Shown: positions 3,538 to 50,046 of the stretch, one piece after another | How positions within the stretch are numbered: position 1 is the first letter of the stretch | How the letters are laid out: each line of letters starts with the position of its first letter | Assembly: GCA_016215155.1 (NCBI GenBank) | Contig: JACRLQ010000015.1 | Coordinates: 26,475-76,520, forward strand | From: Nitrospirota bacterium | GTDB lineage: Bacteria; Nitrospirota; Thermodesulfovibrionia; Thermodesulfovibrionales; UBA6898 | Length of the DNA stretch: 50,046 nt | Direction: 5' to 3' | Translations under genes and position numbers: made by a program | The notes under the pieces: model-generated | The model's input: only the letters and a program-made list of their open reading frames with translations | Databases searched by the model: none | Told to the model about the DNA's origin: nothing

Positions 3538-3559
3538 CTGTCCTGATCCGACATTGAAA

Positions 3560-3985
3560 TTATCTGAAAAAGGCTGTCTTATTATTTTCTAGGAAATCGT
3601 TTTCAGTTTTTCTAATGTATTTTCTGGTATTAAAGTAAATAACGACACCACTTATTAGAAGACTTAATACACCTGCTATAATTAGACTTGCCGCGCTAAA
3701 AAGAATTTCACTTTTCACCTTAAAAACAGCGCCAGCAAGTATCAAATACAGCATTAATGGAATGTATGTATTGATAATCGCCTGGACAATTCTATTCATG
3801 ACAAATCTAGCTTTATCAAAATCAGTCATTTGCGACCATGGCTTTTTATTCGTTTTATATAGCTGACCACAATTAGGACATTGCAGAAAAGGCATTCCCA
3901 AGTTGGAGTTTAAACTCAACCGTGAATATCCCACAGTAAAAGAATATTTGCATTTACTGCATATTATATTTGTATATAGACCCAT
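3560..3985 (-). CDS. Zinc-ribbon plus two-transmembrane-helix hypothetical protein
   Basis: The 141-residue product starts with a zinc ribbon: CSKC near residue 9 and CPNCG near residue 36. Two hydrophobic helices follow (roughly residues 70-90 and 96-117), then a charged tail. No family is recognised. It ends 22 bases from the end of the cyclase-like gene and is read towards it, so the two genes are convergent rather than in one operon. The AT-rich composition matches the islet. The start ATG is preceded on the minus strand by a purine-rich stretch. Confidence 0.5.
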   Translation of the reverse strand: MGLYTNIICSKCKYSFTVGYSRLSLNSNLGMPFLQCPNCGQLYKTNKKPWSQMTDFDKARFVMNRIVQAIINTYIPLMLYLILAGAVFKVKSEILFSAASLIIAGVLSLLISGVVIYFNTRKYIRKTENDFLENNKTAFFR

Positions 3986-17179: not shown

Positions 17180-19846
17180 CTAAACGGCCTCTACCGAAAC
17201 GGCGCAGGCCTTAAACTCGGGGATCTTCACGACAGGGTCCAAGGCGTCGTTAGTAAGCACATTGGCTGCGGCCTCATGGTAATGCATCGGGATAAACACA
17301 ACCCCCTCGGAGACCCTGGTCGTAATCCTTGCCTTTATATCGACGCTCCCGCGCCTGGACCTGACCCTTACAAGGCCGTGGTCACTAATCTTAAGCCTTG
17401 CGGCGTCTTCCGGATTTATCTCCACATAGGCGTCTCCGGCATGACTTTCTATCTGCTTCACCCTCCTTGTCATCGAACCTGAGTGGTACTGATAGAGGTT
17501 CCGGCCGGTCGTCAGCACGAACGGGTATTGAGCATCCGCAATCTCGACGGGGGGCCTGAAAGAGACCGGGACAAAAGGCACTTTCCCCTTCGGGAAACCG
17601 TCTTTATAGAGGTACTCCGTTCCTGGATGGTCTTTTGACGTGCATGGCCACTGAAGGCCGTACTTCGCGATACGGTGATAGTCTATTCCGCTTAGGGCCG
17701 GCCAGACCCGGCCGAACTCCTCCAGGACTTCCGAAGGGGTCGTAAAACCCATATCGTAGCCCAGGCGGCGTGACAGATCAATAATAACCGAGAGGTCGTC
17801 CCTCGCCTCACCGGGGGGATTGACGGCCTTTCTCACCCTCTGGACCCTGCGTTCGGTATTCGAAAATGTGCCGTCTTTTTCAGGGGCGCAGGAGGCCGGC
17901 AGGACGACGTCCGCGAGCCTTGCGGTCTCGGTCATGAATATGTCCTGCACGACAAGGAAGTCCAGTTTTTCGAGGGCCTCCACCGTATGATGCATATGCG
18001 GATCAGTAAAAACAGGATTTTCCCCCATGATATACATAGCCTTGATGCTTCCGGCCCGCGCCGCATTCATCATCTCCGTTGCCGTAACCCCGCACTGGGG
18101 TGAAAGCGATACCCCCCAGGCCTTTTCGAATTTCTCCCGGACCTCGTCCTGGTCCACCCTCTGGTACCCGGGATAGACATTAGGGAGGCAGGCGGCGTCA
18201 GACGCCCCCTGGACGTTGTTCTGGCCGCGAAGCGGATTGACCCCGGTTGACTCACGTCCGATATTGCCGGTCAGGGTCGCCAGGTTCGCCACGGCCCTTA
18301 CGTTATCGGTCCCGCAGGCATGCTGGGTGATGCCCATGGTATAGAATATCCCGGCCCGCCTCGATTTGCCATACAGCCTCGCGGCGGCGATCATATCGTC
18401 TTTGGGTATGCCGGTCAGCTTAGAGACATACTCCGGGGTGTATTCTTCGATCGCTTTCTTCCACTCCTCGTACCCTTCGGTTTTATCGGAGATGAACTCT
18501 TTATTTTCAAGCCCTTCTTTTACGATCACACGCGCCATCCCGTTTAACAGGGCCACGTCGCTTCCCGGCCGCATCTTTAAAAAAAGCTCCGAGAATTTTG
18601 TCATCGGCACTTTGCGGGGGTCTGCGACAATGATCTTCGCACCTTTTCTGTATGCCTTGATCATCCTGTTGGCGATGACCGGGTGTGTCTCCTTGGTATT
18701 CGACCCGATGATGAAGATGACCTCCATGCCCTCGATCTCCCTGATCGAGTTGGTCATCGCCCCGGAACCGAATATCGCGGCCAGACCGGCCACGGTGGGA
18801 GAGTGTCAGAGACGGGCGCAGTGGTCAACGTTATTTGTGCCGACCGCCGCGCGTATGAACTTCTGGAACGCATAATTTTCTTCGTTGGTGCAGCGGGCGG
18901 AAGAGAGCCCCGCAATGGCATCCGGACCGTCTTCCCGCTTGATCTTCTTAAGCCTGTCTGCGATAAGGTCAAGGGCCTCGTCCCAGGTGGCCTCACGGAA
19001 CTCACCGTCTTTTTTGATAAGAGGGTGCTTCAGTCTGTCAGGGCTGGATACAAATTTATATCCGAACCGGCCCTTGACACAAAGCCAGCCCTCATTGAGG
19101 GTATCCTCTTTTGAGGTGACCCGGACAATATCATTGTTTTTGACATGATACGTTATGGTACAGCCCGTGCCGCAGTAGGAACAGATGGAATCGGTTTCTT
19201 TGACCCCCATCTGCCTGCCGTGCTTTGCCCACTGTTTCCCGGTAAGCGCCCCTGTCGGACAGACCGACACACACTGCCCGCAGAACTCGCAGTTTAAATC
19301 ATCCTCGAAGGACGTGACGATCTTCGAGTCGAACCCGCGGTATCCGAAATCAATCGCCTCAACCCCCTGGACCTCGTCGCACACCTTGACGCACCTTCCG
19401 CATAATATGCATTTTTCGAGGTCCCTTTCGATAAAAGGATTGCCGTCTTTCTTTTCGTAGACCCTTCTTTCACCGGCAAACCTGTTTTCGCGGAGGCCAT
19501 ATTCATAAGCGAGCTCCTGAAGCGTACAGGCGCCTGCCTGCTCGCATATCATGCAGTCATTGGGGTGGTCGGAGAGTATGAGTTCGAGGACTGTCCTTCT
19601 GAGTCTTTCAATCGTCGGGCTGGTCGTTACAATCTCCATCCCGTCGCTCACAGGAGTCGTGCAGGAGGTGACAGGACGGGGGAAGCCCTTTATCTCGACC
19701 AGACAGAGCCTGCAGCCTCCAAAGGGCGTTAGCTTGGGATGCTGGCAGAGGGCAGGGATCCTGACCCCTATATTCCTCGCGGCCTCAAGGACCGTCATCC
19801 CCTCGGCTACGGTCGTATCTATGCCGTCTATCTTAATTTTCGCCAT
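17180..19846 (-). CDS. fdhA: Formate dehydrogenase alpha subunit with selenocysteine and NuoG-like N-terminus
   Basis: This is one 888-residue protein, interrupted only by a TGA at 18806-18808 that encodes selenocysteine 347 (HCARL-Sec-HSPTVAG, matching FdhF/FdhA enzymes). It oxidises formate to CO2 at a molybdenum or tungsten bis-pyranopterin centre. N-terminal order: a [2Fe-2S] ferredoxin domain (CQHPK...GGCRLC...C), the NuoG-type DHPNDCMICEQAGAC cluster site, two [4Fe-4S] motifs (CILCGRCVKVC and CEFCGQCVSVC), then the catalytic domain with its own cluster (CSYCGTGC...CVKG). The C-terminal molydopterin dinucleotide-binding domain includes LTTGRNLYQYHSG. The gene starts three bases after the nuoF-like gene, so electrons should pass to the NuoF/NuoE subunits and NAD. 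Both halves lie in one frame and nothing else is damaged, so this is not a pseudogene. Confidence 0.95.
18768..18808 (-). promoter_or_regulatory. UGA selenocysteine codon with SECIS-like hairpin
   Basis: On the minus strand, 14 bases after the UGA begins GUGGCC-GGUCU-GGCC, a short stem (18779-18791 on the plus strand) with the loop GGUCU. This is the apical loop that SelB recognises in E. coli fdhF at the same kind of distance. The site supports UGA readthrough. No selA, selB, selC or selD gene was found in the window, so they must be elsewhere. Confidence 0.8.
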
Positions 19847-24413: not shown

Positions 24414-25289
24414 GTGTCAGTCTCTTCGTTTTTTTCGAAATTTATTGAAGAAAACCAGAAGGCTATAGTGCTTCTGTTTCTGCTTCTCACCATAATCGGC
24501 GGCATCGTGGGGTTCAGGTATTACAGGCATACGAAGGACGACCCCGAGTTCTGCATGTCCTGCCATATGATGCAGGAGGCGTTCAAGACCTGGGAAAAGA
24601 GCAAGCACAGGGACTTCACCTGCCAGAAGTGTCACGTGATGAACATCCTCGAACAAAACAAAATGCTCATATCCTATGTTGTGAAGGGGGCAAACGCCAC
24701 TACGCAGAAACACGGACGGGTATCGCCGTGGGACGCGTGCGCGGGGTGTCATCTCTCCGCGGTTTCCCAGGGATCGTTGACGCTCAATAAATCATACGGC
24801 CACTCGAAACATGTCTTTATGCAGCAGATAAACTGCAGCCGGTGCCATACCGGCACTCTGCACATGTTTTCCCCTAACCAGCAGGCCTGCGCGGAGTGCC
24901 ATAAGGACAAGGTCATCCACGGGATGGGGATGGAGGGCATGGCCTGCCTTTCCTGCCACAATTACAGCGAAAAATCGCCCAAGATGATCTCGACGGATAA
25001 ATGCCGGTCATGCCATAAGAGTATCCCGGTCAAGGGCGTAATGGCCGCGCTTAAGTGCTTTGACTGCCATCATCCCCACGGGAAGATCAAGCCTTCGAAT
25101 CAGGACTGCTTAAAGACCTGCCACGGCAATGAGGCCACTGTCGGCCAGCACAATCTTCATATGACAAAGGCGAAAATGAACTGCCTCGACTGCCACAAGG
25201 CGCATGGCTGGACGGTAGGTAAAACAGAGGCCGCGAAGCTCTGCAGCCGGTGCCACAAATTAAAAAACCCGGCTACTTTTATTTACTAA
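24414..25289 (+). CDS. NapC/NirT-type eleven-heme cytochrome c
   Basis: The 291-residue protein has one N-terminal membrane anchor (about residues 17-35) and then ten CxxCH heme sites plus one CLKTCH, a CX3CH spacing. The first region (DDPEFCMSCHMMQEAFKTWEKSKH) matches NapC/NirT/NrfH quinol-oxidising cytochromes; the rest is a longer multiheme chain facing the periplasm. The family normally has four or five hemes, so this is an extended type. It probably takes electrons from the quinone pool to periplasmic or outer-membrane acceptors. The start is GTG 24414. It converges on the gene of the giant heme-bearing NHL protein. Confidence 0.88.
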   Translation: MSVSSFFSKFIEENQKAIVLLFLLLTIIGGIVGFRYYRHTKDDPEFCMSCHMMQEAFKTWEKSKHRDFTCQKCHVMNILEQNKMLISYVVKGANATTQKHGRVSPWDACAGCHLSAVSQGSLTLNKSYGHSKHVFMQQINCSRCHTGTLHMFSPNQQACAECHKDKVIHGMGMEGMACLSCHNYSEKSPKMISTDKCRSCHKSIPVKGVMAALKCFDCHHPHGKIKPSNQDCLKTCHGNEATVGQHNLHMTKAKMNCLDCHKAHGWTVGKTEAAKLCSRCHKLKNPATFIY

Positions 25290-25296
25290 TGATCAG

Positions 25297-25315
25297 CTGA
25301 AAAAGTCTTTTTCAG
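25297..25315. terminator. Hairpin between convergent cytochrome genes
   Basis: CTGAAAAA-GTC-TTTTTCAG is a perfect eight-base-pair stem with a three-base loop, eight bases after the cytochrome stop. The T run is inside the stem, so it may act as a weak bidirectional terminator or only as an RNA 3' end. Confidence 0.4.
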
Positions 25316-25402
25316 GACTTGGGGGCCCCTGGGACAAACTTTAGAAAACCCCTCACAGGCCGCCACTGTTCGATAAACCTGAGTCCACTGTATCCCTCAC
25401 GA

Positions 25403-28400
25403 TTATGGGGAGGGTATAAAGCCCCTGAACCCTTTATTGTGCGGATGACAGAGTATGCAATCAGTGCCGTTATGATGGCTGTTTCCATCAGTTTGACCGG
25501 ACGCGTCATACCTGTGATGGTCAGTTACAATGTGGCAAACTTCACATATTCTGCTCGAGGATGTGTGATAATCGCTGTCATCTCCAAATTCCGTTGGGTT
25601 GTTAAATACGACATTACTGCCGGGGAAACTGCCGGTCGGCGCATTGACGGTCCCGACAATCCGCTTGATATTCGGACTGCTTTTTTCATGGCAGGTCAAA
25701 CAACCGATAGGACCGTACAGAGAACCCGGCAGTCCCCAGGCCCCGCCCCATTTATTAGTCGGCGTCCATATGCCTCCATTCATCTGGCAAAGGGTCTGAC
25801 TAGTGCCTGTGTATTCAGGCGCGTTCAGGCACGATCCATACCGGTTGGAGTTATGAAGAATCTGGCTCGTTTCGGTATCGAACCAGGCATTAGGGCCTGC
25901 GTTTCCCGCGGCAAAAGCAACAGATGGCCCTGCCGACGCCGAAATATTTCCTGCCTTGTCTATCGCGGTCCCGGCCTTTATCGTTATGCCTATGTCGCCA
26001 TTGCCGTAAACGTTCATGATCGTTATCGTCCGGGCACTGCCGGTCCCGGTTACCGAGACAGTCCCATTTGCGTTGCCTGAACGGCTCAAAAGCACACTTC
26101 CCGATGAAAGACTGACTTCGGTCATATTGGCATCGGCATACGTCACGGTATACGTTACCGGCCCTGATGACGTTGACGATACGGAAGGCCCGCTGATCTC
26201 GATAGCGGGGGGATCGGGATCATAGGTGAAGGAAGCGACTATAGTATGATCAGCGGTGACGCCAACCAGACTATATGTGTTGCCGTTCACTTCTCCGAAG
26301 ACGGACTCCCCGTTGTCATACAGACCACTGAAGAAATAATAAGGGTTGGCATCCACACGGCACACGACATTTTCACCGTGGCCGACGGGTTGGGGAGAGC
26401 AGGATATCACTCCCTGGCCCTCCGGCGCGTATGAAGAAATCGTGTATTGAGTCCCCGTTCCGGATAGATTCACTGTAATTGGACTCCCATACATATTTGA
26501 CGGTATCGACATACTTGAGCTCTTCGGGCCTCCTGTTGAAGGTGAGAAAACAACCTCAACTGAGCATTCGGCGGAAGGCCCGATCTTCATGTCTGAGCAG
26601 CTGTCGTTTTGGATCGTAAATTCACCTGCGTCGCCGCCGGTAATGTTTATGCTATTTACGTTGAGGTTGTTCGTGCCTGTATTCAATATCGTAAAGGTCT
26701 GCGCCGGCGATGAAGTATCAGGATCGATTATGCCGAAGTCCGCTGAATCCGGAGAAAGGGAAAGTCCGGGGTCGCCGAACAGCCCGCTGCCGCCCCGCAC
26801 AGGCCAGGCGTAATAGCCGGCCTCTTTAAAGTCGGCGCTCTCATAGCCTGTTTCCATGCTGACGACCAGTGATTCGGACGCGTCGGCCTCTTTGACGGTC
26901 GATGTCCAGTATTGACTCAACTGTACATTAGTGAAAGGGCTGCCCGAAGGCAACGGCGGATTATTCATTTCGAAGTCGATAAGACTAGACAACTCTTTTC
27001 TGTTGGGCAGGCGCCAATCACCGGAACTCGTCCCGTCAGTCAGGCCGCAGTTCCCGCTTGAAAGGCTCTCTGACCACAAAAGAGAATCGGCCCAGGAGAG
27101 TTCCCCTGCGCAGTTGGCGTCCTTTAGCCATATCAGTCCGGTGAGATCATCCGTTACCGTGCCGTCACTATTGTCGATAAATCTGGGATTCGGCGAGCCC
27201 GCGCCGGCCTGCATAGCTCCATCATCACCACCGGCATAACCGGTCGTCTGCCCTGTTTTCAACACGGGCACACCGGAGAACGGCCCGGTCTGTCCGCCGG
27301 ACACCGGCCAGATGTATAACGGTTCCAACTTCAACCTGTTGCCCACATCCCCGCCACTCATGGCAACTTTCCAGGCGTCATCCGTATTGCCGGAAGAGGT
27401 GGTAGACGTCCAGTAGTAGTCCGATACCACATTTATAAAAGGATTTCCAAAACTGCCGCTTTCATTCAGCCATGCGGCTGAATCCGACTGGCCGGCATTT
27501 AGCAGGCTTTTGAGCTCATTAACATTGGGCAGCCTCCAATCGTTACGACCGTACGCGCCGGTCCCGCCGTTGGCTGTGTTCATTGAAGCCACAAAATCGA
27601 GGGCCTCCTGCCAGGTCTTTGCTTCAGCAGTCAGGTTTGCGTCCTTCGTCCATATGAGCCCGGTCAGTTTGTCGGTCACGGTCTCATCCCCCTTGTCAGC
27701 AAACCTCGGATCAGGCCATGAAATTCCATATTTAAGGTCACCGTCGTCTCCCGTTGAATACGTGGTGTTCTGCCCGGTCTGACCCAGTTCAACGGCGTGG
27801 TCTCCTTCCGCAAAAGTGACGACAATATTCGTATGATCATCCGTAACGTATAAAAATGTATAGGTCAGACTGCCGTCGCTCTTTACAAGATGACCGGAAA
27901 CAGGGACGCCGTCGTCCGTCATGCTGAAGATATAGTAGCCCGGATCCGGCGTCACTGTGCAGACGGAGTTGTTACCGTAATCCACCGGAGACTCACATGA
28001 AATCGTCCCTTGTCCGTCGGAAACCGTTGCCGCAACCTGATAGGTGAACCGGTAACGGTCTTCTTTGACCTCCTCGCCGTTGCCGACATTGTCGATCGAA
28101 GCATAGCGGAGATAGACTTCAGCGCCGCTGGCGACACTGATCGGCCCGCTGTATGGCGTGCCCGGGATACAACCCGCCCCTGTGCAGTATAGCAGCGCTC
28201 CGCACCCTGAGCCTGACACGTCCTTACACTTGAGGGTGACCGCCTGTGAACTGTCATATGTGTCGCCGGAAGGGGTCGCCGAGGTTACCGGAGCTTCCAG
28301 GTCCTGTCTGACGGCAGAGCTCCTTACGGACTCTGTATTGCCGGCATTGTCAACGGATTGATATCTCACATATTGGGTGCAGGTGTTGCCGGAGGCACAT

Positions 28401-31400
28401 GTGAAGCTTATCGCGCCTGTATAGCTTATTGACGGGGCGCAATTATCAGAGGTATCAACACAGTATTTCGGATATCCGGCTTTCACTCCCGAGCCGTCGG
28501 CGTCGCTTGCAGAGAGAGTCACACTCACCACGCCGCCGGCCGTCCAGTTTCCGAGGGTATAGCCCCCAGCTGTCGCCGCCGTTACAGGCGGGGTAAGATC
28601 CTGCTTGATATTAACGCTCTTTACACTTTCGAGGTTCAGAAATCTGTCATAAGCCTGAAACATAACATACTGCGTGCAGGTATTGCCGGAGTCACAGGTC
28701 ACATCTATCGGCGCGGTGTAGCTCGTCGCCGGCGCGCATGTATTCGTCGTTACGCAATACTTCGGATACCCGCTGAGCACTCCGGCGCCTGAATCAGCTG
28801 CCGAGAGCGTCACACTCACCGTCCCGCTGTTTGTCCAACTGCCGAAGGAATATCCCGCTGCTGAAGCGGTGCTTGCCGGAGCTGCGCTGTCGACCTCCAC
28901 CCTGCGGATACGGTGATTGTACCGGTCGGCTACATAGATGTTGCCCAAGCTGTCCAGGGCGACGCCGTAGGGATTATTAAGGCTTGCGGCGGTGGCGATA
29001 ACTCCGTCAGTATAATAAGCTCCTGAGCCGGTCCCCGCTGCTGTGCTGATAATTCCCGAAGAGTTAACTTTACGAATACGGGAATGGCTCGTGTCGGCAA
29101 TGAAAATATCCCCCACTCCATTGACCGCTATACCTCTCGGATAATAAAGACTTGCGGCAGAGGCCTGCCCTCCGTCCCTGATATTGGCGGTGGCGCCGTC
29201 GCCGGCGTATGTGCTTATAACGCCCGCGGTGACTTTCCGGACGCGGTGGTTATAGGTATCGCTTATAAAAATGTTTCCCGAACTGTCAACCGCGACTCCG
29301 GAGGGATAATTGAGGTTTGCAGAAGCAGCAGGGCCGTTATCTCCTCCAAAGCCCCCCGTGGAGCTGCTGCCGGCCACTGTATTGATCTTGCCGTCCGTAA
29401 TAGTGACCTTCCTGATGCGGTGGTTATTTTGATCGGCAATATATATGTTGCCTGAGCCGTCCAAGGCCACATCGTTTGGGTACAGAAGTCTTGCCGAGGT
29501 GGCCGGGCCGGTGTCTCCCGCAAAACCTGAAGTTGCGCTGCCGGCCACTGTATTGATCTTGCCGTCCGTAATAGTGACCTTCCTGATGCGGTGGTTATTT
29601 TGATCGGCAATATATATGTTGCCTGAGCTGTCCAGAGTTATTCCCTGGGGGTAATTGAGGTTTGCAGAAGCAGCAGGGCCGTTATCTCCTCCAAAGCCCG
29701 GAGTCCCATTGCCGGCAATTATGTCGATCACCCCTGACGTATTGATCTTGCGTATCACGTGATGATCGCTATCCGATATATAGACATTTCCCGAGCCGTC
29801 AACAACCGCGGCACGGGGGAACCTCAGACCCGAAAGAACAGCCTGGTCCCCGTCCGCCGTGCTCGCGCCGACGAGGGTGCTTATATTCCCGGTTGAAACT
29901 GTCACTTTGCGGATGCCGTTGTTGTAAGTGTCTGCAATGTATATATTCCCTGAACCGTCTAAACCCACGGCCATCGGATAGTATATTTTTGCGGCTGTAG
30001 CCGGACCTCCATCCCCTGTAAAACCATAACTTCCACTTCCGGCTACAGTATGGATCTTGCCGTCCTCTATCGTTACCTTCCTGATCCGATTGTTAGACCT
30101 GTCAGCAATATAAAAATTCCCGGAGCTATCCAGCGCGACCCCTGAGGGGTTGTTTAAATTTGCTGAAGTTGCGGCTGCTCCATCTCCTCCGAAACCTCCG
30201 GTGGAACTGCTGCCCGCCACTGTGCTGATATAGCCGGTCGAAGCCGCAACCATTCTTATTCTGTGATTGGAAGTATCTGCGATATAGATGTCCCCATTGC
30301 TCTTGACCGCAACCCCCATAGGTGACGAGAGGGTCGAGGAGGTCGCCGGTATGTTATCCGCGGTAAAGCCAGGGGTCCCGTTGCCGGCAACTGTCGTTAT
30401 GATACCTGTTGTGGCGTTTATCATCCGGACACGATGGTTGCCGTAATCCGCTATATAAAGGTTGCCTGAGCTGTCGAAGGACATTCCCCGCGGGTTGAGC
30501 CCTGCCAGGACGGCCGGTCCGCCGTCTCCCGACCAGGCAGACGCGCCGGTCCCTGCGACGGTGCTGATAGCGCCTGTTGCGACCGACACCTTCCTGACGC
30601 GGTTGTTGCTGGTATCGGCTATATAGATATTGCCCGCGTTATCCGACAGGACCCCGGCGGGAAATTTGAGTCCCGCGGCCGCCGCGGGCCACTCATCTCC
30701 CGAAAAAGTCCCCCTGCCGGTTCCGGCTATAGTGCTTATATTGCCCAACACATCTATCTTTCGCACCCGATTGTTTGAACTATCCGCTATATAGATATTC
30801 CCAAGGCTGTCCAGTGCAACCCCAAAAGGCATGCTGACTATTCCCGAAGTCGCTGCTCCGCCATCACCTGTTCCTCCGCCTGAGAAGGTTGTAATCATCC
30901 CCTGGGCCGGCACATAAGCGAAGATTGCTGTTACCGCAGTATCCGCGTTCATGGTCACGGCACATGTCCCGCTCCCTGAACAGCCGCCGCCGGACCATCC
31001 CACGAAGGCCGAGCCGCTATCCGGTGCAGCGGTCAAGACCACCACCGTATTGTTCGTATATGCCGAACTGCAGCCGGTCCCGCAGCTGATGTCGTTGCCG
31101 GTCACCGCGCCGGTGCCTGAGCCGCCCAGATACACCGTCAGTCTCCGGGCCGTAGTTGTCGTAGCTGTAGTGCCTGTAGCCGTATTGCCCAGCCCGTCCA
31201 CGGCGCAGACCCTGTATGAGTATTGTGTCGCAAACGCCAAAGGAGTGTGCAGGTAGCTCTGCATCTGCCCTGTATAAATCATTGAACCTGAGCTGCAGTC
31301 TGAAGGAGGAGTCGCTCCTGAGGCATATACCAGCTTGTATGAGACGTGGCCGCCGCCTGTATCTGACGAACTCCAGATGAGCTGCACACTGGTGGAGGCA

Positions 31401-34400
31401 GGAAACGCACTGATGGGGCCCTGCCGGTCCTGTCTGACCTGACTGCTCTTCACTATCTCATTATTTCCGGAGTTGTCGGCGGAAAAATACCTCACGTACT
31501 GGGTGCAGGTGAACCCTGCCGCGCAGGTAACACTAACTGTAGGGCCGCTTGTCGAAGGCAGGCAGGTGTCTGTTGTGTCCACGCAATATCTGGGATACCC
31601 GAAGGCCACGCCGCTGCCGTCGGCGTCGCTCGCGGTCAAGGTCACGGCCACCGCGCCGTCGGCCGCCCAATCCCCGAAGGTATAGCCTGCCGCGGAGGCT
31701 GTCGTCACCGGAGGAGCGGTTTCGAATTCGGCAAACGCCGCCGAAAGGCTGTGCGTTCCTGCCACAGAGCTGAAGACATAAGGCGAGGCCGTACTCTGAG
31801 CATTGCCGTCGGCGGTTACCGACCGGGTGACAAAGCCGCTATCGGGGCTGATAACACAGGATGAACTTGCTCCGTAATCCACCGGGTTGGGGGCACAGAT
31901 TATGCTCCCGTTGGGTCCCGCATTTGTCGTGATAGCGAAAGTTTGCACCGTGAATACAGGATATATGGCCATGTCCGAAGTCATGCTGTTTATCGAGCAA
32001 GTATTGACCGTGGTTGAGTTACAGCCGGACCCCCAGTTGATTGAGGTGCCCGACGGCAAGTTTGCAGTCAGGATAACCGCGCTCCCGGTGTTGATCCCTC
32101 CCGATGCGCATACGCCGCCTGAGGCCGCACCGTTCCAGGCGCAGTTGACGGCCCCAAGGCTGCTTGTAACAGTAGCGCTTTGGCCATAAGAGACCATACC
32201 TGAGGGGCTTACCGTCAATGTCCTGGTGACAACAGCCGAGGCGTTGACTGTCGTATCTGTCGATAAATTCATATTGCATGTGTCATTCTCAAGGACAGTG
32301 GTGGAGATAGTGCCGCAGCCGGACCACAAAATGCCGAACCCGGAAGGAAAAGCCGCCACCAGGCTGACGGCGCCTCCGTAAGGGATCCCGGTTGAGACGC
32401 AGGACCCCCATTTGACAGACCCGTTCCATCTGCAGTCTATTGCTCCGGTGCCGCCGATTGTTATGCTCTGTCCGTTGGGGATGTCCCCGGATATATTGAC
32501 AGTCACGCTGCTGAAATAATTGAACTTCTGGACCCGGTTGTTAGCCGTATCAGCCACATAAACGTTGCCGCTGCCGTCCACGGATATTCCGCCAGGATCA
32601 GTAAACTGGCCGTTGCCTGAGCCATAACTCCCCCATCGCGTCTGATATACCCCCGAAGAATTGAACTTCTGTATTCGGTTGTTGCCCGCATCAGTCACAT
32701 ACACATTGCCGCTGCCGTCCGCCGCAACTCCGCCAGGATTATCAAACTGGCCGTTGCCTGAGCCATAACTCCCCCACTGGGTCTGATACACTCCTGAAGA
32801 ATTGAACTTCTGTATTCGGTTGTTGCCCGCATCAGCCACATAAATGTTGCCGCTGCCGTCCACTGCTACCGCCGCAGGATAACTGAACTGGCCATTACCT
32901 GTGCCATAACTACCCCACTTGGTAATATATGCGCCGCCGTCCATAGCCATTCCCTCAGGATAATTGAACTGACCGCTGCCGCCGCTGCTTCCCCACTGGG
33001 TCAAATACGTCCCGCCTGTGCTGAACTTCTGTATACGGTTGTTATTCGTATCAGCCGCATACACATTGCCGCTGCCGTCTACCGCCACTCCCGTGACATC
33101 ATTAAACTGGCCGTTACCGGCGCCGCTGCTCCCCCACTGGGTCAAATACGTCCCGTTTGAGCTGAACTTCTGTATACGGTCGTTATTCATATCAGCCGCA
33201 TACACATTGCCGCTGCCGTCCACCGCCAATCCCGTGACATCATTAAACTGGCCGTTACCGGCGCCGCTGCTTCCCCACTGTGTCTGATACACTCCTGAAG
33301 AATTGAACTTCTGTATACGGTTGTTGCCCGCATCAGCCACATAAATGTTGCCGCTGCCGTCCACTGCTACCGCCGCAGGATAACTGAACTGGCCATTACC
33401 TGTGCCATAACTACCCCACTTGGTAATATATGCGCCGTTTGAACTGAACTTCTGTATACGATCGTTGCCTGTATCGGCCACATAAACGTTGCCGCTGCCG
33501 TCCACTGCTATCCCTTTAGGATAACTGAACAGGCCATTATCACTGCCTAAGCTTCCCCACTGGGTAACATATGTTCCGTCCGAGTTAAACTTCTGGATGC
33601 GGCTGTTATATCTGTCGGCCACATATACGTTGCCGCTGCCGTCCGCTGCTATCCCTTCAGGAAACGAGAACTGGCCGTTTTCGCCACCGAAACTGCCCCA
33701 CTGGATCAAAAAAGTGCCGTCCGAATCAAACTTTTGGATTCTGTCGTTAAAGGTATCAGCCACATAAACGTTGCCGCTGCCGTCCGCCGCTACGCCCATG
33801 GGTAACTGAAGTGGGTCGTAGTCCCCGCTCCTGCCCCACTTTGTCAGGAATGCTCCTCCTGAGTCGAATTTCTGGATACGGAGGTTATCCGAATCAACCA
33901 CATATACGTTGCCGCTGCCGTCTACAGCAATGCCATAAGGTAAATTCAACTGGCCGTTTTCGATACCATAGCTCCCCCATTGTGTCAGATATGTCCCGGT
34001 TGAACTGAACTTCTGGATACGGAAGTTGCCGAGATCAACTACGTACACGTTGCCGCTACTGTCCACCGCTGAACCGTAAGGACTGCTAAACTGACCGTCG
34101 TCGGAGCCATAGCCACCCCACTGGGTCAGGTACGTCCCGCCTGAATCGAATTTCTGGATGCGGTTATTGCCCGTATCTGCCACGTACACGTTGCCGCTGC
34201 CGTCTGCCGCTACTGTAACAGGATAAACGAATTGGCCGTAGTCGCTGCCGGAACTCCCCCACTGGGTCAGGTATGTCCCGCCTGAATCGAACTTCTGGAT
34301 ACGGTCGTTATTCGTATCAGCTACATACACGATGCCGCTGCCATCTACCGCTACTCCTAAAGGATAATTGAACTGGCCGTTGTCGATGCCGTACCCTCCC

Positions 34401-34783
34401 CACTGGGTAACATATGTCCCGTCAGAGCTGAACTTCTGTATGCGATGGTTATTCGAATCGACTACATATACGTTGCCGCTTATATCGACGGCTATTCCGT
34501 TAGGAGAATCGAACTGGCCGTTGCCGCTGCCATAGCTCCCCCACTGGGTCAGATATGTCCCGCCTGAGCTGAACTTCTGTATACGATGGTTATTCGAATC
34601 GACCACATAAACGCTGCCGCTTATATCAACAGCTATTCCGTAAGGAACATTGAAGAGTCCGCCCCCCGCCGGCCACGCACGCTCAAATACATATGATCCC
34701 AGGGCATGAGAAGGCAGCAACGCCGCTAACACGGCACAAACGCCTAAAAAACATAGTAACCGGGACAACCTTCCTGAATTCAT
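25403..34783 (-). CDS. Giant exported NHL-propeller / Ig / DUF1566 protein with C-terminal triheme module
   Basis: A 3126-residue protein starts with a signal peptide (hydrophobic CFLGVCAVLAALL, cleavage after HALG). Residues about 37-755 hold 15 full NHL repeats and one truncated repeat of about 48 residues (GSGNVYVADTGNNRIQKF type). Residues about 756-1290 hold InlB-like and FN3-like beta domains. Residues about 1294-1967 hold 12 NHL repeats of a second type (GNIYIADTSNNRVRK, often followed by a TVAG turn), enough for two six-blade propellers. More Ig-like repeats with paired cysteines (YPKYCV, CTQYV) follow, then two DUF1566 (Lcl C-terminal) domains at about 2331-2664 with WRLPN, a choice-of-anchor-D domain at about 2670-2764, and a C-terminal domain with three heme sites CLTCH, CEVCH and CILCH. 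A GGGGGG ribosome binding site precedes the ATG. It is likely a cell-surface or secreted adhesin or scaffold that also carries electrons; the function is inference. Confidence 0.85.
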   Translation of the reverse strand: MNSGRLSRLLCFLGVCAVLAALLPSHALGSYVFERAWPAGGGLFNVPYGIAVDISGSVYVVDSNNHRIQKFSSGGTYLTQWGSYGSGNGQFDSPNGIAVDISGNVYVVDSNNHRIQKFSSDGTYVTQWGGYGIDNGQFNYPLGVAVDGSGIVYVADTNNDRIQKFDSGGTYLTQWGSSGSDYGQFVYPVTVAADGSGNVYVADTGNNRIQKFDSGGTYLTQWGGYGSDDGQFSSPYGSAVDSSGNVYVVDLGNFRIQKFSSTGTYLTQWGSYGIENGQLNLPYGIAVDGSGNVYVVDSDNLRIQKFDSGGAFLTKWGRSGDYDPLQLPMGVAADGSGNVYVADTFNDRIQKFDSDGTFLIQWGSFGGENGQFSFPEGIAADGSGNVYVADRYNSRIQKFNSDGTYVTQWGSLGSDNGLFSYPKGIAVDGSGNVYVADTGNDRIQKFSSNGAYITKWGSYGTGNGQFSYPAAVAVDGSGNIYVADAGNNRIQKFNSSGVYQTQWGSSGAGNGQFNDVTGLAVDGSGNVYAADMNNDRIQKFSSNGTYLTQWGSSGAGNGQFNDVTGVAVDGSGNVYAADTNNNRIQKFSTGGTYLTQWGSSGGSGQFNYPEGMAMDGGAYITKWGSYGTGNGQFSYPAAVAVDGSGNIYVADAGNNRIQKFNSSGVYQTQWGSYGSGNGQFDNPGGVAADGSGNVYVTDAGNNRIQKFNSSGVYQTRWGSYGSGNGQFTDPGGISVDGSGNVYVADTANNRVQKFNYFSSVTVNISGDIPNGQSITIGGTGAIDCRWNGSVKWGSCVSTGIPYGGAVSLVAAFPSGFGILWSGCGTISTTVLENDTCNMNLSTDTTVNASAVVTRTLTVSPSGMVSYGQSATVTSSLGAVNCAWNGAASGGVCASGGINTGSAVILTANLPSGTSINWGSGCNSTTVNTCSINSMTSDMAIYPVFTVQTFAITTNAGPNGSIICAPNPVDYGASSSCVISPDSGFVTRSVTADGNAQSTASPYVFSSVAGTHSLSAAFAEFETAPPVTTASAAGYTFGDWAADGAVAVTLTASDADGSGVAFGYPRYCVDTTDTCLPSTSGPTVSVTCAAGFTCTQYVRYFSADNSGNNEIVKSSQVRQDRQGPISAFPASTSVQLIWSSSDTGGGHVSYKLVYASGATPPSDCSSGSMIYTGQMQSYLHTPLAFATQYSYRVCAVDGLGNTATGTTATTTTARRLTVYLGGSGTGAVTGNDISCGTGCSSAYTNNTVVVLTAAPDSGSAFVGWSGGGCSGSGTCAVTMNADTAVTAIFAYVPAQGMITTFSGGGTGDGGAATSGIVSMPFGVALDSLGNIYIADSSNNRVRKIDVLGNISTIAGTGRGTFSGDEWPAAAAGLKFPAGVLSDNAGNIYIADTSNNRVRKVSVATGAISTVAGTGASAWSGDGGPAVLAGLNPRGMSFDSSGNLYIADYGNHRVRMINATTGIITTVAGNGTPGFTADNIPATSSTLSSPMGVAVKSNGDIYIADTSNHRIRMVAASTGYISTVAGSSSTGGFGGDGAAATSANLNNPSGVALDSSGNFYIADRSNNRIRKVTIEDGKIHTVAGSGSYGFTGDGGPATAAKIYYPMAVGLDGSGNIYIADTYNNGIRKVTVSTGNISTLVGASTADGDQAVLSGLRFPRAAVVDGSGNVYISDSDHHVIRKINTSGVIDIIAGNGTPGFGGDNGPAASANLNYPQGITLDSSGNIYIADQNNHRIRKVTITDGKINTVAGSATSGFAGDTGPATSARLLYPNDVALDGSGNIYIADQNNHRIRKVTITDGKINTVAGSSSTGGFGGDNGPAASANLNYPSGVAVDSSGNIFISDTYNHRVRKVTAGVISTYAGDGATANIRDGGQASAASLYYPRGIAVNGVGDIFIADTSHSRIRKVNSSGIISTAAGTGSGAYYTDGVIATAASLNNPYGVALDSLGNIYVADRYNHRIRRVEVDSAAPASTASAAGYSFGSWTNSGTVSVTLSAADSGAGVLSGYPKYCVTTNTCAPATSYTAPIDVTCDSGNTCTQYVMFQAYDRFLNLESVKSVNIKQDLTPPVTAATAGGYTLGNWTAGGVVSVTLSASDADGSGVKAGYPKYCVDTSDNCAPSISYTGAISFTCASGNTCTQYVRYQSVDNAGNTESVRSSAVRQDLEAPVTSATPSGDTYDSSQAVTLKCKDVSGSGCGALLYCTGAGCIPGTPYSGPISVASGAEVYLRYASIDNVGNGEEVKEDRYRFTYQVAATVSDGQGTISCESPVDYGNNSVCTVTPDPGYYIFSMTDDGVPVSGHLVKSDGSLTYTFLYVTDDHTNIVVTFAEGDHAVELGQTGQNTTYSTGDDGDLKYGISWPDPRFADKGDETVTDKLTGLIWTKDANLTAEAKTWQEALDFVASMNTANGGTGAYGRNDWRLPNVNELKSLLNAGQSDSAAWLNESGSFGNPFINVVSDYYWTSTTSSGNTDDAWKVAMSGGDVGNRLKLEPLYIWPVSGGQTGPFSGVPVLKTGQTTGYAGGDDGAMQAGAGSPNPRFIDNSDGTVTDDLTGLIWLKDANCAGELSWADSLLWSESLSSGNCGLTDGTSSGDWRLPNRKELSSLIDFEMNNPPLPSGSPFTNVQLSQYWTSTVKEADASESLVVSMETGYESADFKEAGYYAWPVRGGSGLFGDPGLSLSPDSADFGIIDPDTSSPAQTFTILNTGTNNLNVNSINITGGDAGEFTIQNDSCSDMKIGPSAECSVEVVFSPSTGGPKSSSMSIPSNMYGSPITVNLSGTGTQYTISSYAPEGQGVISCSPQPVGHGENVVCRVDANPYYFFSGLYDNGESVFGEVNGNTYSLVGVTADHTIVASFTYDPDPPAIEISGPSVSSTSSGPVTYTVTYADANMTEVSLSSGSVLLSRSGNANGTVSVTGTGSARTITIMNVYGNGDIGITIKAGTAIDKAGNISASAGPSVAFAAGNAGPNAWFDTETSQILHNSNRYGSCLNAPEYTGTSQTLCQMNGGIWTPTNKWGGAWGLPGSLYGPIGCLTCHEKSSPNIKRIVGTVNAPTGSFPGSNVVFNNPTEFGDDSDYHTSSSRICEVCHIVTDHHRYDASGQTDGNSHHNGTDCILCHPHNKGFRGFIPSP
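32781..32936 (-). repeat. Near-identical intragenic repeat, copy A (ends at truncated blade)
   Basis: About 156 bases match 33282-33437 with one difference seen (tattcgg against tatacgg). The two copies lie 501 bases apart, which is 167 codons, so the frame is kept. Copy A joins directly to the truncated NHL repeat (...MAMDG-GAYITKW). Confidence 0.8.
33282..33437 (-). repeat. Near-identical intragenic repeat, copy B
   Basis: This is the partner of 32781-32936. It lies in an intact blade context, where the sequence continues into DRIQKFSSNGAYITKW. The whole 32500-34680 stretch is built of diverged units of about 144-147 bases, one per propeller blade. Confidence 0.8.
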
Positions 34784-34832
34784 CTACCCCCCCAATACCG
34801 GCAGTTTGATTTTGAGAAAAATTCTTTCAAAT

Positions 34833-34860
34833 ATTATAAAGAACAGTTTGTAAAAAACAA
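34833..34860 (-). promoter_or_regulatory. Probable sigma-70 promoter of the giant NHL gene
   Basis: On the minus strand TTGTTT (34855-34860) and TATAAT (34833-34838) are 16 bases apart. They lie about 50 bases before the ATG, in an AT-rich leader. Confidence 0.45.
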
Positions 34861-34872
34861 TAACATTAATTT

Positions 34873-34906
34873 ATAGGTAGTGGGTCAGTTTTGACCCGCT
34901 ACCTAT
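34873..34906. repeat. Long hairpin in the gap between the NHL gene and hsp20
   Basis: ATAGGTAGTGGGTCA and TGACCCGCTACCTAT pair over 15 positions (one G-T wobble) around GTTT. No T tract follows on either strand. It lies downstream of the heat-shock operon and upstream of the NHL gene promoter, so it could end the former. The rest of 34784-35131 holds the promoter, a half copy of the dispersed repeat and no gene I can support. Confidence 0.55.
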
Positions 34907-34967
34907 TTATGAGGTCTTATGATGCGCCCTTATATGTGTTACTTCGAGGCGCCTGATCTTAAAGACG

Positions 34968-35000
34968 ATGGCTTCCCGGCTACCGCCTCGGGAATGACGG
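34968..35000. repeat. Dispersed repeat, half copy
   Basis: GATGGCTTCCCGGCTACCGCCTCGGGAATGACGG resembles the right half (TGGATTCCCG...CGGGAATGAC) of the element at 2410-2484. The left half is not recognisable. Confidence 0.4.
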
Positions 35001-35131
35001 TAAATAGATTTTTTTGAGGGTTATCACGTAAAGGTAAGGAACAAATATTATGGCGCTGAAGCTTAAATCCAGGACCCGGCAGGACGGTATCATCCCCGCC
35101 TCCCGGGTCTGCTCTTTTTACGGCGGGCTTA

Positions 35132-35593
35132 TTATGAAATGGAGACTTTTATCTCCGACTGCCTGGCCTCTTCCTTTTTCGGCAATACGATCTCGAGCAC
35201 ACCGTTTTTAAAGGCGGCCTTCGCCTTTGCCGAATCGACGTCCGGAGGAAGCGGGATGGTCCTGCTGAAGCTTCCGAAGGACCTCTCAAGAGAATAATAG
35301 TTCTCCTGCTTGACCTCTTCCTCCTTCCTGAGCTCCCCCTTGAGGGTGAGGTGGTCCTTCGTGATCGTAAGGTCGATGTTCTCCTTCTCGACGCCCGGGA
35401 TGTCGGCCTTGACTACCACCTCGCCATTGCGTTCAAACACGTCCACGCTCGGGACGAACTGGCCGGGCTCGATGTTCTTAAGTCCGAACCTTCTTCTCGA
35501 TGCCGGCTCTAAAAAATCACCAAACAGCTTGTCCAGATCTCTTCTCATATCCTCAAGCTCCCTTATCGGGGCCCATTTTACTATAGACGACAT
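35132..35593 (-). CDS. Hsp20 family small heat-shock protein
   Basis: The 153-residue chaperone holds unfolding proteins in a refoldable state. The alpha-crystallin domain spans about residues 45-140: PSVDVFERNGEVVVKADIPGVEKENIDLTI, then LKGELRKEEE and a GVLEIVLPK motif at its end. An I-x-V tail (IKVSI) ends the protein. An AGGAGG ribosome binding site precedes the ATG. It is the last gene of the cluster, 119 bases after clpB, and may share its promoter or have its own. Confidence 0.95.
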   Translation of the reverse strand: MSSIVKWAPIRELEDMRRDLDKLFGDFLEPASRRRFGLKNIEPGQFVPSVDVFERNGEVVVKADIPGVEKENIDLTITKDHLTLKGELRKEEEVKQENYYSLERSFGSFSRTIPLPPDVDSAKAKAAFKNGVLEIVLPKKEEARQSEIKVSIS

Positions 35594-42454: not shown

Positions 42455-43570
42455 TTGAAAAAAATATTATCTATTTTATCCGCACTCGTTGGTCTTTCGT
42501 TATTCTGGATTGGCTCCGGAGCGGCCCAGCCGGTCGAAATAACTATCACCGGGAATCCGATTCCGATGGCCTACCCGGACGGAAGCTACACGGAGATAGG
42601 CGGAGACCTTAAGATTTCAGGCCAAGGGGCGGCTATAATATTCAGCGATAATTCAGTCCAGAGTACTGCCACGCTTCAGGGCATTCAGGGGCCTCAGGGA
42701 ATCCAGGGCATTCAGGGACCGCCCGGAAATAACGGCACCGTTATCTATAGTGGTGGGACTGCCCCCGTCAATACGACAGGCGTCGATGGTGACTTCTATA
42801 TCGACACCTATAATAAAAGATTCTATGGCCCGAAGGCCGGTGGGGCATGGGGGCTGTATTTTGCTGCGTTTATTGGTAAATCTGTTTTGAACGGTGCCGG
42901 CACACCCGTTGCAACCGGGGCTACGGGTAACGTCGGTGACTTCTATATTGACACAACAACCTACTTGATCTACGGCCCAAAGGTTAGTTCCACCTGGACC
43001 GGTCTTGTCGGCGTATCGCTTGTCGGGCCGGCCGGCCCAGCGGGCGCCGGTTCGAGCCAGCCAAGAGCCCCTGTTTTGAATACGGGCCAGAAGACCACTT
43101 ATGCCCTGGGCGATGATGCCGACTGGAACAGGGGTGCGTCATCCGGCACTCGTTTTACCGACAACGCCGACGGCACGTTCACTGATAACGTCACTGGCTT
43201 AAAATGGCTCATCAATCAAAATTGTTCAGGTTCTATTACATGGGCTCAGGCGCTAACTTGGGCTAATACTCTGGCAGGAGGCAGCTGCGGCCTTTTAGCG
43301 GGTTCTTATCCCGCGGGCTCCTGGCGGCTGCCTAACCTCCTCGAACTGAGAAGCCTTCTGGATTACAACGCCTCCGCGCCTGCTGTGCAGTACGAATTGC
43401 AATGGAGTATTCTCGGTTCTTTCGATTCTTATGTATATTGGACCAGCACCACTAGTGCGGCCGCGGCCGCTGACGGCTGGTATGTTGACCTCAATTATGG
43501 GGGGACCGGCAGGATGGCCAAGACCTTTACTAATTATGTCTGGCCGGTATCCGGGCAGGGGTACAGGTGA
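42455..43570 (+). CDS. Exported collagen-like DUF1566 protein
   Basis: The 371-residue protein has a signal peptide (MKKILSILSALVGLSLFW, cleavage near SGAAQ), a beta-rich head, a short collagen-like stretch of Gly-x-y triplets (GIQGPQGIQGIQGPPG, residues about 75-91), two copies of a GDFYID...YGPK unit (about 110 and 165), and a C-terminal DUF1566 (Lcl C-terminal) domain with KWLINQNCSG, WRLPNLLELRSLL and YVWPVSG. The start is TTG 42455 after GAGAAGGTGA. The same C-terminal domain occurs twice in the giant NHL protein. It overlaps the next gene by four bases. Surface attachment is a reasonable guess. Confidence 0.75.
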   Translation: MKKILSILSALVGLSLFWIGSGAAQPVEITITGNPIPMAYPDGSYTEIGGDLKISGQGAAIIFSDNSVQSTATLQGIQGPQGIQGIQGPPGNNGTVIYSGGTAPVNTTGVDGDFYIDTYNKRFYGPKAGGAWGLYFAAFIGKSVLNGAGTPVATGATGNVGDFYIDTTTYLIYGPKVSSTWTGLVGVSLVGPAGPAGAGSSQPRAPVLNTGQKTTYALGDDADWNRGASSGTRFTDNADGTFTDNVTGLKWLINQNCSGSITWAQALTWANTLAGGSCGLLAGSYPAGSWRLPNLLELRSLLDYNASAPAVQYELQWSILGSFDSYVYWTSTTSAAAAADGWYVDLNYGGTGRMAKTFTNYVWPVSGQGYR

Positions 43571-44220
43571 GCAATATGATCGAAAACATTTTTGCTTCAT
43601 CGAGAGGTAACGTCAGCACTAAAAGGAACCTGACATATTTGGTCTTTTTAACCCTGGTATTTTTTTCGATTGCCGGAATATCCTATGCCGATTTCAAGGT
43701 CGGCATCCCAAAGACAGGCGAAACAACTACCAACGGCGCTGGGTCTGATGGTGTTTTAAAAAAGGGTGTTGCCTGGCCGGGCCCGAGATTTACAGCCTCA
43801 AACGGGGCGGTCACTGACAATCTCACCGGCCTTGTATGGCTTCAGGACGCCAACTGCTATGCGCTTGCCGGAGGGATCAACAAAGCAGCCCCCGGATCTC
43901 TAAACTGGGCCGATGCCCTCACTTGGACAAACAGCCTTGCAAGCGGCGCGTGCGGGCTCTCGGACGGCTCGGCCGCGGGTGACTGGCGGCTTCCTAACAT
44001 TAATGAACTAAACAGCCTGATGGATGCTTCGAGATCCAACCCTGCGCTTCCGGCGGGCCATCCTTTTACAGGAGTGCAGGCTGATAATTATTGGTCTTCG
44101 ACAACCCCTGGGGCCATGCCTGGCAATGCAATGATGTTTCATATGGGCTACGGAGATGTGAACTTGGATGCTGATCTCAGCACCCCCCGTTTCGTCCTGC
44201 CGGTCCGCGGCGGGCAATAG
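43567..44220 (+). CDS. Exported DUF1566 domain protein
   Basis: The 217-residue protein has an N-terminal membrane/signal segment (LTYLVFLTLVFFSIAG, then SYADF) and one DUF1566 domain: GLVWLQDANC, a NWADALTWTNSLASGACGLSDG stretch, WRLPNINELNSLMD and a YWSSTT core. The start is GTG 43567 or ATG 43576. Its four-base overlap with the collagen-like gene implies co-translation, so the two probably act together at the cell surface. No ligand can be inferred. Confidence 0.75.
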   Translation: MSNMIENIFASSRGNVSTKRNLTYLVFLTLVFFSIAGISYADFKVGIPKTGETTTNGAGSDGVLKKGVAWPGPRFTASNGAVTDNLTGLVWLQDANCYALAGGINKAAPGSLNWADALTWTNSLASGACGLSDGSAAGDWRLPNINELNSLMDASRSNPALPAGHPFTGVQADNYWSSTTPGAMPGNAMMFHMGYGDVNLDADLSTPRFVLPVRGGQ

Positions 44221-49192: not shown

Positions 49193-50046
49193 TTACCGGG
49201 TGCTTTTGAACTCGTCGAGGAGTTTTTTGAAATCCTCCTCGCCCATTTCATTGGTCAGTTCCGTAATAAGCCCGTGAACGATGTTCACGTTCGGTGAGCC
49301 GAGCTTTTCGAAAATATCGAGAGATATGAGGTAGTCGGTGAAGGCATCGATGTAATTTTTCTTCATCTGCATGATCCTGCCGACCATGCCAATGCTCGAG
49401 GCGACCCCGGAGATGTCTCCGACCTTTTTGGCGATCTCAAGGGCCTTCTGGAAAAATTCGAGGGCCAGGTCATACTCGCCCCTGCTCTGGTGCACAATCC
49501 CCATCTGATGATAGCTCTTCGATACCCCGGAGATGTCCCCGATCCTCTCCGCTATGCCAAGGGCGCTCTGATAAAATTCAAGGGCCAGGTCATACTCACC
49601 CCTGCCCTGGTGAACAATCCCCATCTGATGATAGCTTTTTGATATCCCGGAGATGTCCCCGATCTGCTCTTCTATGCCGAGGGATTTCTGGTAAAACTCG
49701 AGCGCCCGGTCATACTCGCCCCTGCTCTGGTGCACGATCCCCATATTATGAAAACTCAGGGACACCTCTGCCTTATCTCCGATCTTCTCCGCGATCTCAA
49801 GGGCCTTCCGGTGATATTCAAGCGCCTTTTCATTCGCCCCCCTGCTCTGGCAGATTATCCCTATCTGGTTATAGCTTCTGGCCACCCCGGAGTCGTCCCT
49901 GAGTTTCTCCGCTATCTCAAGCGCCTTCTCCGACAGGTCGAGCGCCCGGTCGTAGTCACCCTTGAGCTTGTGCAGAAGCCCCATCTGGCCGTATATCCTC
50001 AGTATCCCGTAAAAATCCGCGGAGTTCTGCTTTATCTCAAGGGCCT
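49193..50046 (-). CDS. Tetratricopeptide repeat protein, 5' partial
   Basis: The frame is open to the right edge, so the start lies outside. The visible 284 or so residues hold at least six TPR units of exactly 40 residues, of the type with GDYDRALEFYQKALEIAEKIGD and Y/F-x-x-MGIVHQSRG. Neighbouring units are almost identical, so recent repeat expansion is likely. The unit spacing and sequence resemble the kinesin-light-chain type TPRs that occur with CHAT or AAA partners. The C-terminal 40 residues are helical without a recognised motif. No partner gene is visible. Confidence 0.85.
   Translation of the reverse strand, partial: ALEIKQNSADFYGILRIYGQMGLLHKLKGDYDRALDLSEKALEIAEKLRDDSGVARSYNQIGIICQSRGANEKALEYHRKALEIAEKIGDKAEVSLSFHNMGIVHQSRGEYDRALEFYQKSLGIEEQIGDISGISKSYHQMGIVHQGRGEYDLALEFYQSALGIAERIGDISGVSKSYHQMGIVHQSRGEYDLALEFFQKALEIAKKVGDISGVASSIGMVGRIMQMKKNYIDAFTDYLISLDIFEKLGSPNVNIVHGLITELTNEMGEEDFKKLLDEFKSTR

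Follow-up and report, generated by a model that had tools for sequence, protein, structure and literature searches.

A giant NHL-repeat protein of a Nitrospirota bacterium that ends in a clipped opening module of multiheme cytochromes

The window analysed here, a stretch of 50,046 nucleotides from a Nitrospirota bacterium, encodes a giant protein in which two blocks of NHL propeller blades, Ig-like spacers and two Lcl_C (DUF1566) domains are followed by the first module of giant multiheme cytochromes, cut after its third heme site. At the level of the sequence, we show here this architecture, that the tail is homologous to the opening heme module of cytochromes, that the fourth CxxCH motif and all that would follow it are missing, that heme-binding and candidate distal His residues are retained, and that the locus is variable and empty in congeners. 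We propose that the protein would be a secreted mosaic scaffold or adhesin to which the clipped module was joined, the tail acting as a relay or docking piece, a reading to which we give about an even chance of being right.

Domain composition of the giant protein

The gene runs on the minus strand from an ATG at 34783 to a stop at 25405-25403 as a single open frame, in agreement with the uninterrupted 9.4-kb frame reported, with no strand stated, in a preliminary description of this DNA. The features ahead of the heme tail are listed below.

25403..34783, minus: whole gene, uninterrupted frame from the ATG, 3126 aa
34694..34783, minus: apparent Sec signal peptide MNSGRLSRLLCFLGVCAVLAALLPSHALGS, about residues 1-30, read by eye
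32516..34669, minus: type-1 NHL block, residues 39-756, with 15 complete blades (about 47 aa each) and one 26-aa remnant (Pfam and count)
33318..33437, minus: 120-bp exact direct repeat, copy 1; the repeat closes the out-of-register step of the array
32912..32989, minus: truncated blade, residues 599-624 (26 aa; count), without strands and with pLDDT about 25 in the model
32817..32936, minus: 120-bp exact direct repeat, copy 2, beginning at the point where the remnant blade is broken
30884..32515, minus: linker of InlB-B-repeat type, weak FN3 and OmpL47-like (by eye)
28889..30871, minus: type-2 (teneurin-like) NHL block of 12 blades, about residues 1305-1965 (Pfam and count)
27854..28888, minus: OmpL47, CHB_HEX_C and InlB-B-repeat modules, about residues 1966-2310 (NCBIfam, domain search)
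27302..27685, minus: Lcl_C (DUF1566) domain 1, residues 2367-2494 (Pfam)
26819..27181, minus: Lcl_C (DUF1566) domain 2, about residues 2535-2655 (Pfam stretch, borders by eye)
26459..26773, minus: choice-of-anchor-D / HYDIN-ASH Ig domain, residues 2671-2775 (Pfam, NCBIfam)

A domain search over the full protein recovered NHL, Lcl_C, InlB-B, ASH, OmpL47 and choice-of-anchor-D domains. Specifically, Pfam gave 642 bits for NHL (PF01436, cut-off 20) in 25 stretches, 171 bits for Lcl_C (PF07603), above the cut-off, in two stretches, and four stretches of divergent InlB B-repeats together with an Ig domain of the HYDIN/ASH type, while NCBIfam reported two OmpL47-type domains and scored the choice-of-anchor-D domain at 60.6 bits. 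The type-2 blades were also scored by Pfam as teneurin-type NHL. Counts off the sequence agree with the 15 full plus one truncated type-1 blades and the 12 type-2 blades of the preliminary description, and the two DUF1566 domains and the choice-of-anchor-D domain that it named were likewise found; of its Ig/FN3-like modules the Ig-like part stood, whereas FN3 was weakly supported in the domain search and the InlB-B-repeat, OmpL47 and ASH types fit better. A scytonemin-associated ScyF identity was rejected: the corresponding model fires on NHL repeats alone, and the protein has neither a VPEP/PEP-CTERM end nor a scytonemin neighbourhood.

Export of the protein is likely, given the apparent Sec signal peptide and the adhesin-type modules. 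No lipobox was recognised in the signal peptide when read by eye, and Pfam, NCBIfam and inspection by eye recognised no outer-membrane or cell-wall anchor, including a sortase or PEP-CTERM signal or a barrel; type II secretion or unanchored release may be the routes taken. The earlier suggestion of a surface fibre that positions hemes away from the cell thus finds no support, no anchor having been recognised at either end of the protein.

In a single-sequence model of the type-1 block (mean pLDDT 51.8), of moderate quality and used for the strand pattern only, the full blades have four strands each and the remnant blade none. The two copies of the 120-bp direct repeat are identical and lie 501 bp apart. 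Without the 501-bp step the array would consist of 12 blades, which would be the count for two six-bladed propellers and the same as in the type-2 block. The array could have been misassembled from short reads, and the type-1 blade count is less secure than the fusion of scaffold and heme module.

Several other features were noted alongside this gene. In the same order, large Rhs/YD-repeat-like ORFs (L206-L209, L212, L214) carry type-2-like NHL blades and have C-termini with YD-type repeats; teneurins are known for combining NHL blades with YD-type repeats. Two adjacent Lcl_C (DUF1566) genes of 371 and 217 aa, at 42455-44220 on the plus strand, are relatives of the DUF1566 region of the giant protein, one of the matches containing an internal stop. 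A TPR protein at 49404-49929 on the minus strand contains tandem DNA repeats of 120 bp (about 40 aa) with 74% matches. Finally, a NuoG/formate-dehydrogenase-alpha-like gene at 17180-19846 on the minus strand appears as two ORFs split by one in-frame TGA at residue 347 (..CARLUHSPTVAGL..); reading TGA as U gives one 888-residue protein, and the TGA falls at the usual selenocysteine position of formate dehydrogenase.

A cytochrome module at the C-terminus

The end of the protein carries the following features.

25421..25882, minus: clipped cytochrome module (residues 2968-3121), a homologue of the module that opens the heme region of giant multiheme cytochromes, ending short of their fourth CxxCH
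25688..25702, minus: heme site 1, CLTCH, residues 3028-3032, invariant in relatives
25532..25546, minus: heme site 2, CEVCH, residues 3080-3084, invariant in relatives
25445..25459, minus: heme site 3, CILCH, residues 3109-3113, invariant in relatives

The three CxxCH motifs previously noted at the C-terminus start at residues 3028, 3080 and 3109, all within the last 100 residues; given the Cys and His content of the protein, chance alone would produce 0.008 such motifs. No curated heme family scored above its cut-off on the tail alone, PF14522 reaching 16.6 bits in Pfam against a cut-off of 24.8. Despite this sub-threshold score, a clear family emerged when the tail itself and a profile built from its relatives were used as queries, the homologous opening module being found in more than 90 other ORFs. 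Relatives of the tail are present in 24 of the 61 genomes tested, in 30/176 genomes of the order and in 37/395 of the phylum, as well as at 49 loci of the named genome collection, in which the contig scan used the closer alignment subset A2 and is thus biased towards close relatives; these loci belong to Geobacter, Geomonas, Geotalea, Citrifermentans, Desulfuromonadales, Desulfarculales and Nitrospirota MAGs.

Across 46 aligned sequences, the tail included, 26 positions before the fourth CxxCH show at least 90% conservation in the relatives. The giant protein matches 25 of them, including every heme Cys and His and His 3090, 3103 and 3115, which we regard as candidate distal ligands for the three hemes. 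The CxxCH sites and these candidate His residues are invariant across the 45 relatives; a lack of CxxCH conservation, named at the outset as a sign that the triheme tail is an accident of this sequence, is thereby ruled out. NHL and DUF1566 relatives without hemes do not alter this, because the tail is conserved against cytochromes. Chance does not account for the three motifs, and the tail belongs to a bona fide cytochrome module. The structure prediction proposed earlier for this region was run with AlphaFold, and the resulting model was too poor (mean pLDDT 46.5) to serve for a fold search.

The tail also keeps non-heme invariants of the module (W3012, W3016, G3017, Y3023, N3038, E3081 and F3119), as would be expected if the module were structural, a compact C-terminal cap or interaction domain for adhesion or multimer formation that takes no part in electron transfer; the adhesin-like bulk of the protein speaks in the same direction. 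We consider this explanation quite improbable, since the relatives that define the module are all multiheme chains, and three candidate distal His for three hemes would, by analogy, suggest redox-competent bis-His sites.

The stop codon lies 13 residues past the third CxxCH. In the relatives a fourth CxxCH follows at about 15 residues past the third and the chain then continues, usually with 5-40 hemes; both the fourth motif and the later heme chain are absent from the giant protein. In the phylum search its match ends at model position 139 of 151, and among the 71 module matches listed from 395 phylum genomes it is the only one to reach the end of its frame without a fourth motif, the other short matches being cut by masked bases (G031), placed at a contig end (G335:C19) or split (one match in G030). 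A longer cytochrome cut by a nonsense mutation was considered and rejected: when all three minus-strand frames past the stop were read up to the convergent gene, zero CxxCH motifs and no cytochrome similarity appeared. The unusual order pointed out in the preliminary description is therefore borne out, as a module that normally opens a long heme chain here closes the protein.

A large ectodomain ahead of the opening module is already known from relatives. Long heme-free Ig-like parts precede it in L101, L104, L110 and L118, the module lying at residue 1851 of 2119 in L110 and at residue 1650 of 2183 in L101 from Geomonas. Two proteins from outside the phylum, moreover, stop where the giant protein does: L120 (Desulfuromonadales MAG JAMPXI010000005.1, 1057 aa), in which a heme-free Ig/FN3 ectodomain is followed by a terminal triheme module (..CHRHDNGFASPWANPGP), and L119 (Desulfuromonas sp. 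MnB_14, 5' end missing), which ends in the same way after heme 3. In both the module is C-terminal and the chain ends 11-13 residues past the third CxxCH; unlike the giant protein, they have no NHL or DUF1566 domains. A 26-heme cytochrome is encoded immediately upstream of the L120 gene, in the same orientation. In the free tree the tail of the giant protein, a long branch, is placed apart from L119 and L120, but the AU test does not reject a single clade (p 0.25), so that the clipped ends may or may not share one origin.

The closest solved relatives of the module are GSU1996 and its domains (PDB 3ov0, E 4e-10; 3oue, 3e-7; 1rwj, 4e-4). In a cytochrome c7 alignment, the c7-type structures align to hemes 2-4 of the module, so that the giant protein holds the first two hemes of this unit plus one upstream. 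With heme 4 absent, the c7 triheme arrangement is incomplete, and the lack of the last heme of the c7 unit counts against a simple function.

Locus, distribution and origin of the fusion

The gene occupies a slot whose content differs between congeners.

25290..35132, no strand: variable slot between the decaheme gene and hsp20/clpB (congener comparison)

The gene order is a convergent decaheme gene, the giant gene and then hsp20/clpB/dnaJ. In three congeners both flanks are kept at 73-79% DNA identity, and the slot between them measures 110 bp, measures 269 bp or holds an unrelated lipoprotein-like gene; as far as this comparison goes, the giant gene would thus have been gained in this lineage, or lost repeatedly. 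The NapC/NrfH-type decaheme gene (24414-25289, plus strand, 10 CxxCH) adjoins rho, has conserved counterparts in 21 of 27 relatives (identity up to 81%) and is retained where the giant gene is missing. A working link to this neighbour from gene order was dropped, as congeners keep the decaheme gene without the giant gene, and the latter stands outside any operon with a cytochrome gene.

About 90 bp upstream of the start of the giant gene, at 34869-34902, lies a nearly perfect inverted repeat (ATAGGTAGTGGGTCA-GTTT-TGACCCGCTACCTAT), which could be an operator or a terminator. Since the inverted repeat (GTAGTGGGTCAGTTTTGACCCGCTAC) has one copy in the genome, we discarded it as the signature of a recurring mobile element. 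In congener G001 (L247, about 3430-3640) the empty decaheme-clpB slot holds an AT-rich stretch of about 200 bp with near-complementary ends (CTAGGCGGTCAACAAAGGTG / CACCTTTGTTGACCACCTAGG), resembling a small mobile element.

We looked for the same combination of domains in 26 other genomes of the family and in the best matches fetched elsewhere. Searches by the tail, by the DUF1566/choice-of-anchor region and by the type-2 NHL block returned no full-length homologue with the combined architecture. The roughly 35 NHL-type ORFs that were fetched for the order contain no CxxCH motif, no NHL blades were found in the giant DUF1566/Ig ORFs fetched from relatives, and among the latter only L136 carries hemes, which are N-terminal and in an unrelated layout. 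A regular-expression count likewise found no NHL in the other ORFs with the heme module, blades in relatives having been scored by regular expression, which divergent blades could escape. Within this sampling, the order NHL - NHL - Lcl_C - heme is seen in one genome only. The heme-free NHL and DUF1566 relatives fit a lineage-specific fusion, and with its slot empty or otherwise filled in three congeners the giant gene would encode a lineage-specific mosaic.

Could the fusion be an artefact, the 5' end of a cytochrome gene misjoined to a giant surface-protein gene in a metagenome-like assembly? The genome is in 101 contigs, the gene is rich in repeats and short reads could have misassembled the 120-bp exact repeat. 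The Ig-like-to-heme junction is nevertheless a continuous open frame, and no near-identical tail DNA exists elsewhere in the genome, the next best match standing at 45% protein identity. Since the flanks are collinear with those of the congeners, an artefact would need two misjoins plus a preserved frame, and we judge such a chimera very improbable.

A serious rival, which we hold to be possible if somewhat unlikely, is that the tail is a passenger: recombination would have put the 5' part of a heme gene behind a surface-protein gene, leaving a tail with no redox role or a recent remnant that has yet to decay. The occurrence of the fusion in one genome, the variability of the slot within the genus and the cut inside the c7-like fold all fit this explanation, as do the arrays of the giant gene, which have clearly recombined (out-of-register blade, 120-bp exact repeat). 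Species-unique cytochromes and rapid gene turnover are, moreover, typical of Geobacter (PMC12977616). Against it, 25 of the 26 conserved positions are kept in a long-branched tail whose identity to related modules is only 40-55%; the tail has diverged and yet its heme and ligand residues are intact, which indicates that substitutions accumulated but spared them. No residual cytochrome sequence is left past the stop, and the C-termini of L120 and L119 fall at the equivalent point.

Proposed role and nearest known systems

In the reading that we favour, the two NHL propeller blocks, the Ig-like spacers and the two Lcl_C/DUF1566 domains would form the secreted scaffold or adhesin, and the module that opens a giant multiheme cytochrome, clipped after heme 3, would have been joined to it. 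The three hemes would be attached in the periplasm during export; heme attachment to the tail is plausible, because the genome carries cytochrome-c assembly genes and intact multiheme cytochromes with the opening module (L034). The tail may then be a short redox relay or docking piece between the scaffold and the cell's own surface multiheme cytochromes. It would not be a conduit alone. Three hemes reach only a couple of nanometres, and for this reason we do not propose long-range conduction along the protein.

The nearest known systems are the giant multiheme cytochromes of Nitrospirota, Geobacteraceae and Desulfuromonadales (L034, L036, L101, L110, L118 and others). They share the module, its spacing and its invariants, are of the Cytochrome_C7 / GSu_C4xC__C2xCH type and in many cases have heme-free Ig-like regions ahead. 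They differ from the giant protein in having the fourth CxxCH and usually 5-40 more hemes, and in their accessory domains: NHL was found in none by regular expression and Lcl_C in 0 of the 6 run through Pfam.

NHL proteins with genes of their own accompany porin-multiheme complexes in the case of UetHI (PMC10734462), of DFE_0451 and DFE_0463 of D. ferrophilus (PMC9769857) and in Geoalkalibacter (PMC12016550). This arrangement makes a propeller-cytochrome fusion plausible; the likeness to UetHI and DFE_0451/DFE_0463 is one of description, and these NHL partners of electron-transfer cytochromes are the products of separate genes, whereas here a single chain is found. There is precedent for fusing heme regions to non-heme domains in giant surface proteins: the very large ANME MHC types A-C combine them with S-layer and pectin-lyase-like domains (PMC9012536). 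They are an analogy only, being archaeal, with many hemes and other accessory domains.

By extension, the giant protein might bring into one chain the partnership of NHL propeller and surface cytochrome, its redox plug docking on giant cytochromes and so tying adhesion to extracellular electron transfer, with terminal triheme proteins like L120 as a second, separate line of design. We put this forward tentatively and regard it as unlikely.

In conclusion, if the tail is heme-loaded, the opening module can act as a self-contained heme cap that passes from one surface protein to another, and it would offer an expressible piece of about 150 residues for asking what the module does in full-size cytochromes. 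If it is not, the protein would be a clean case of domain shuffling making species-specific giant surface proteins. Either way, a classification based only on counting CxxCH motifs would wrongly place this protein among the surface cytochromes.
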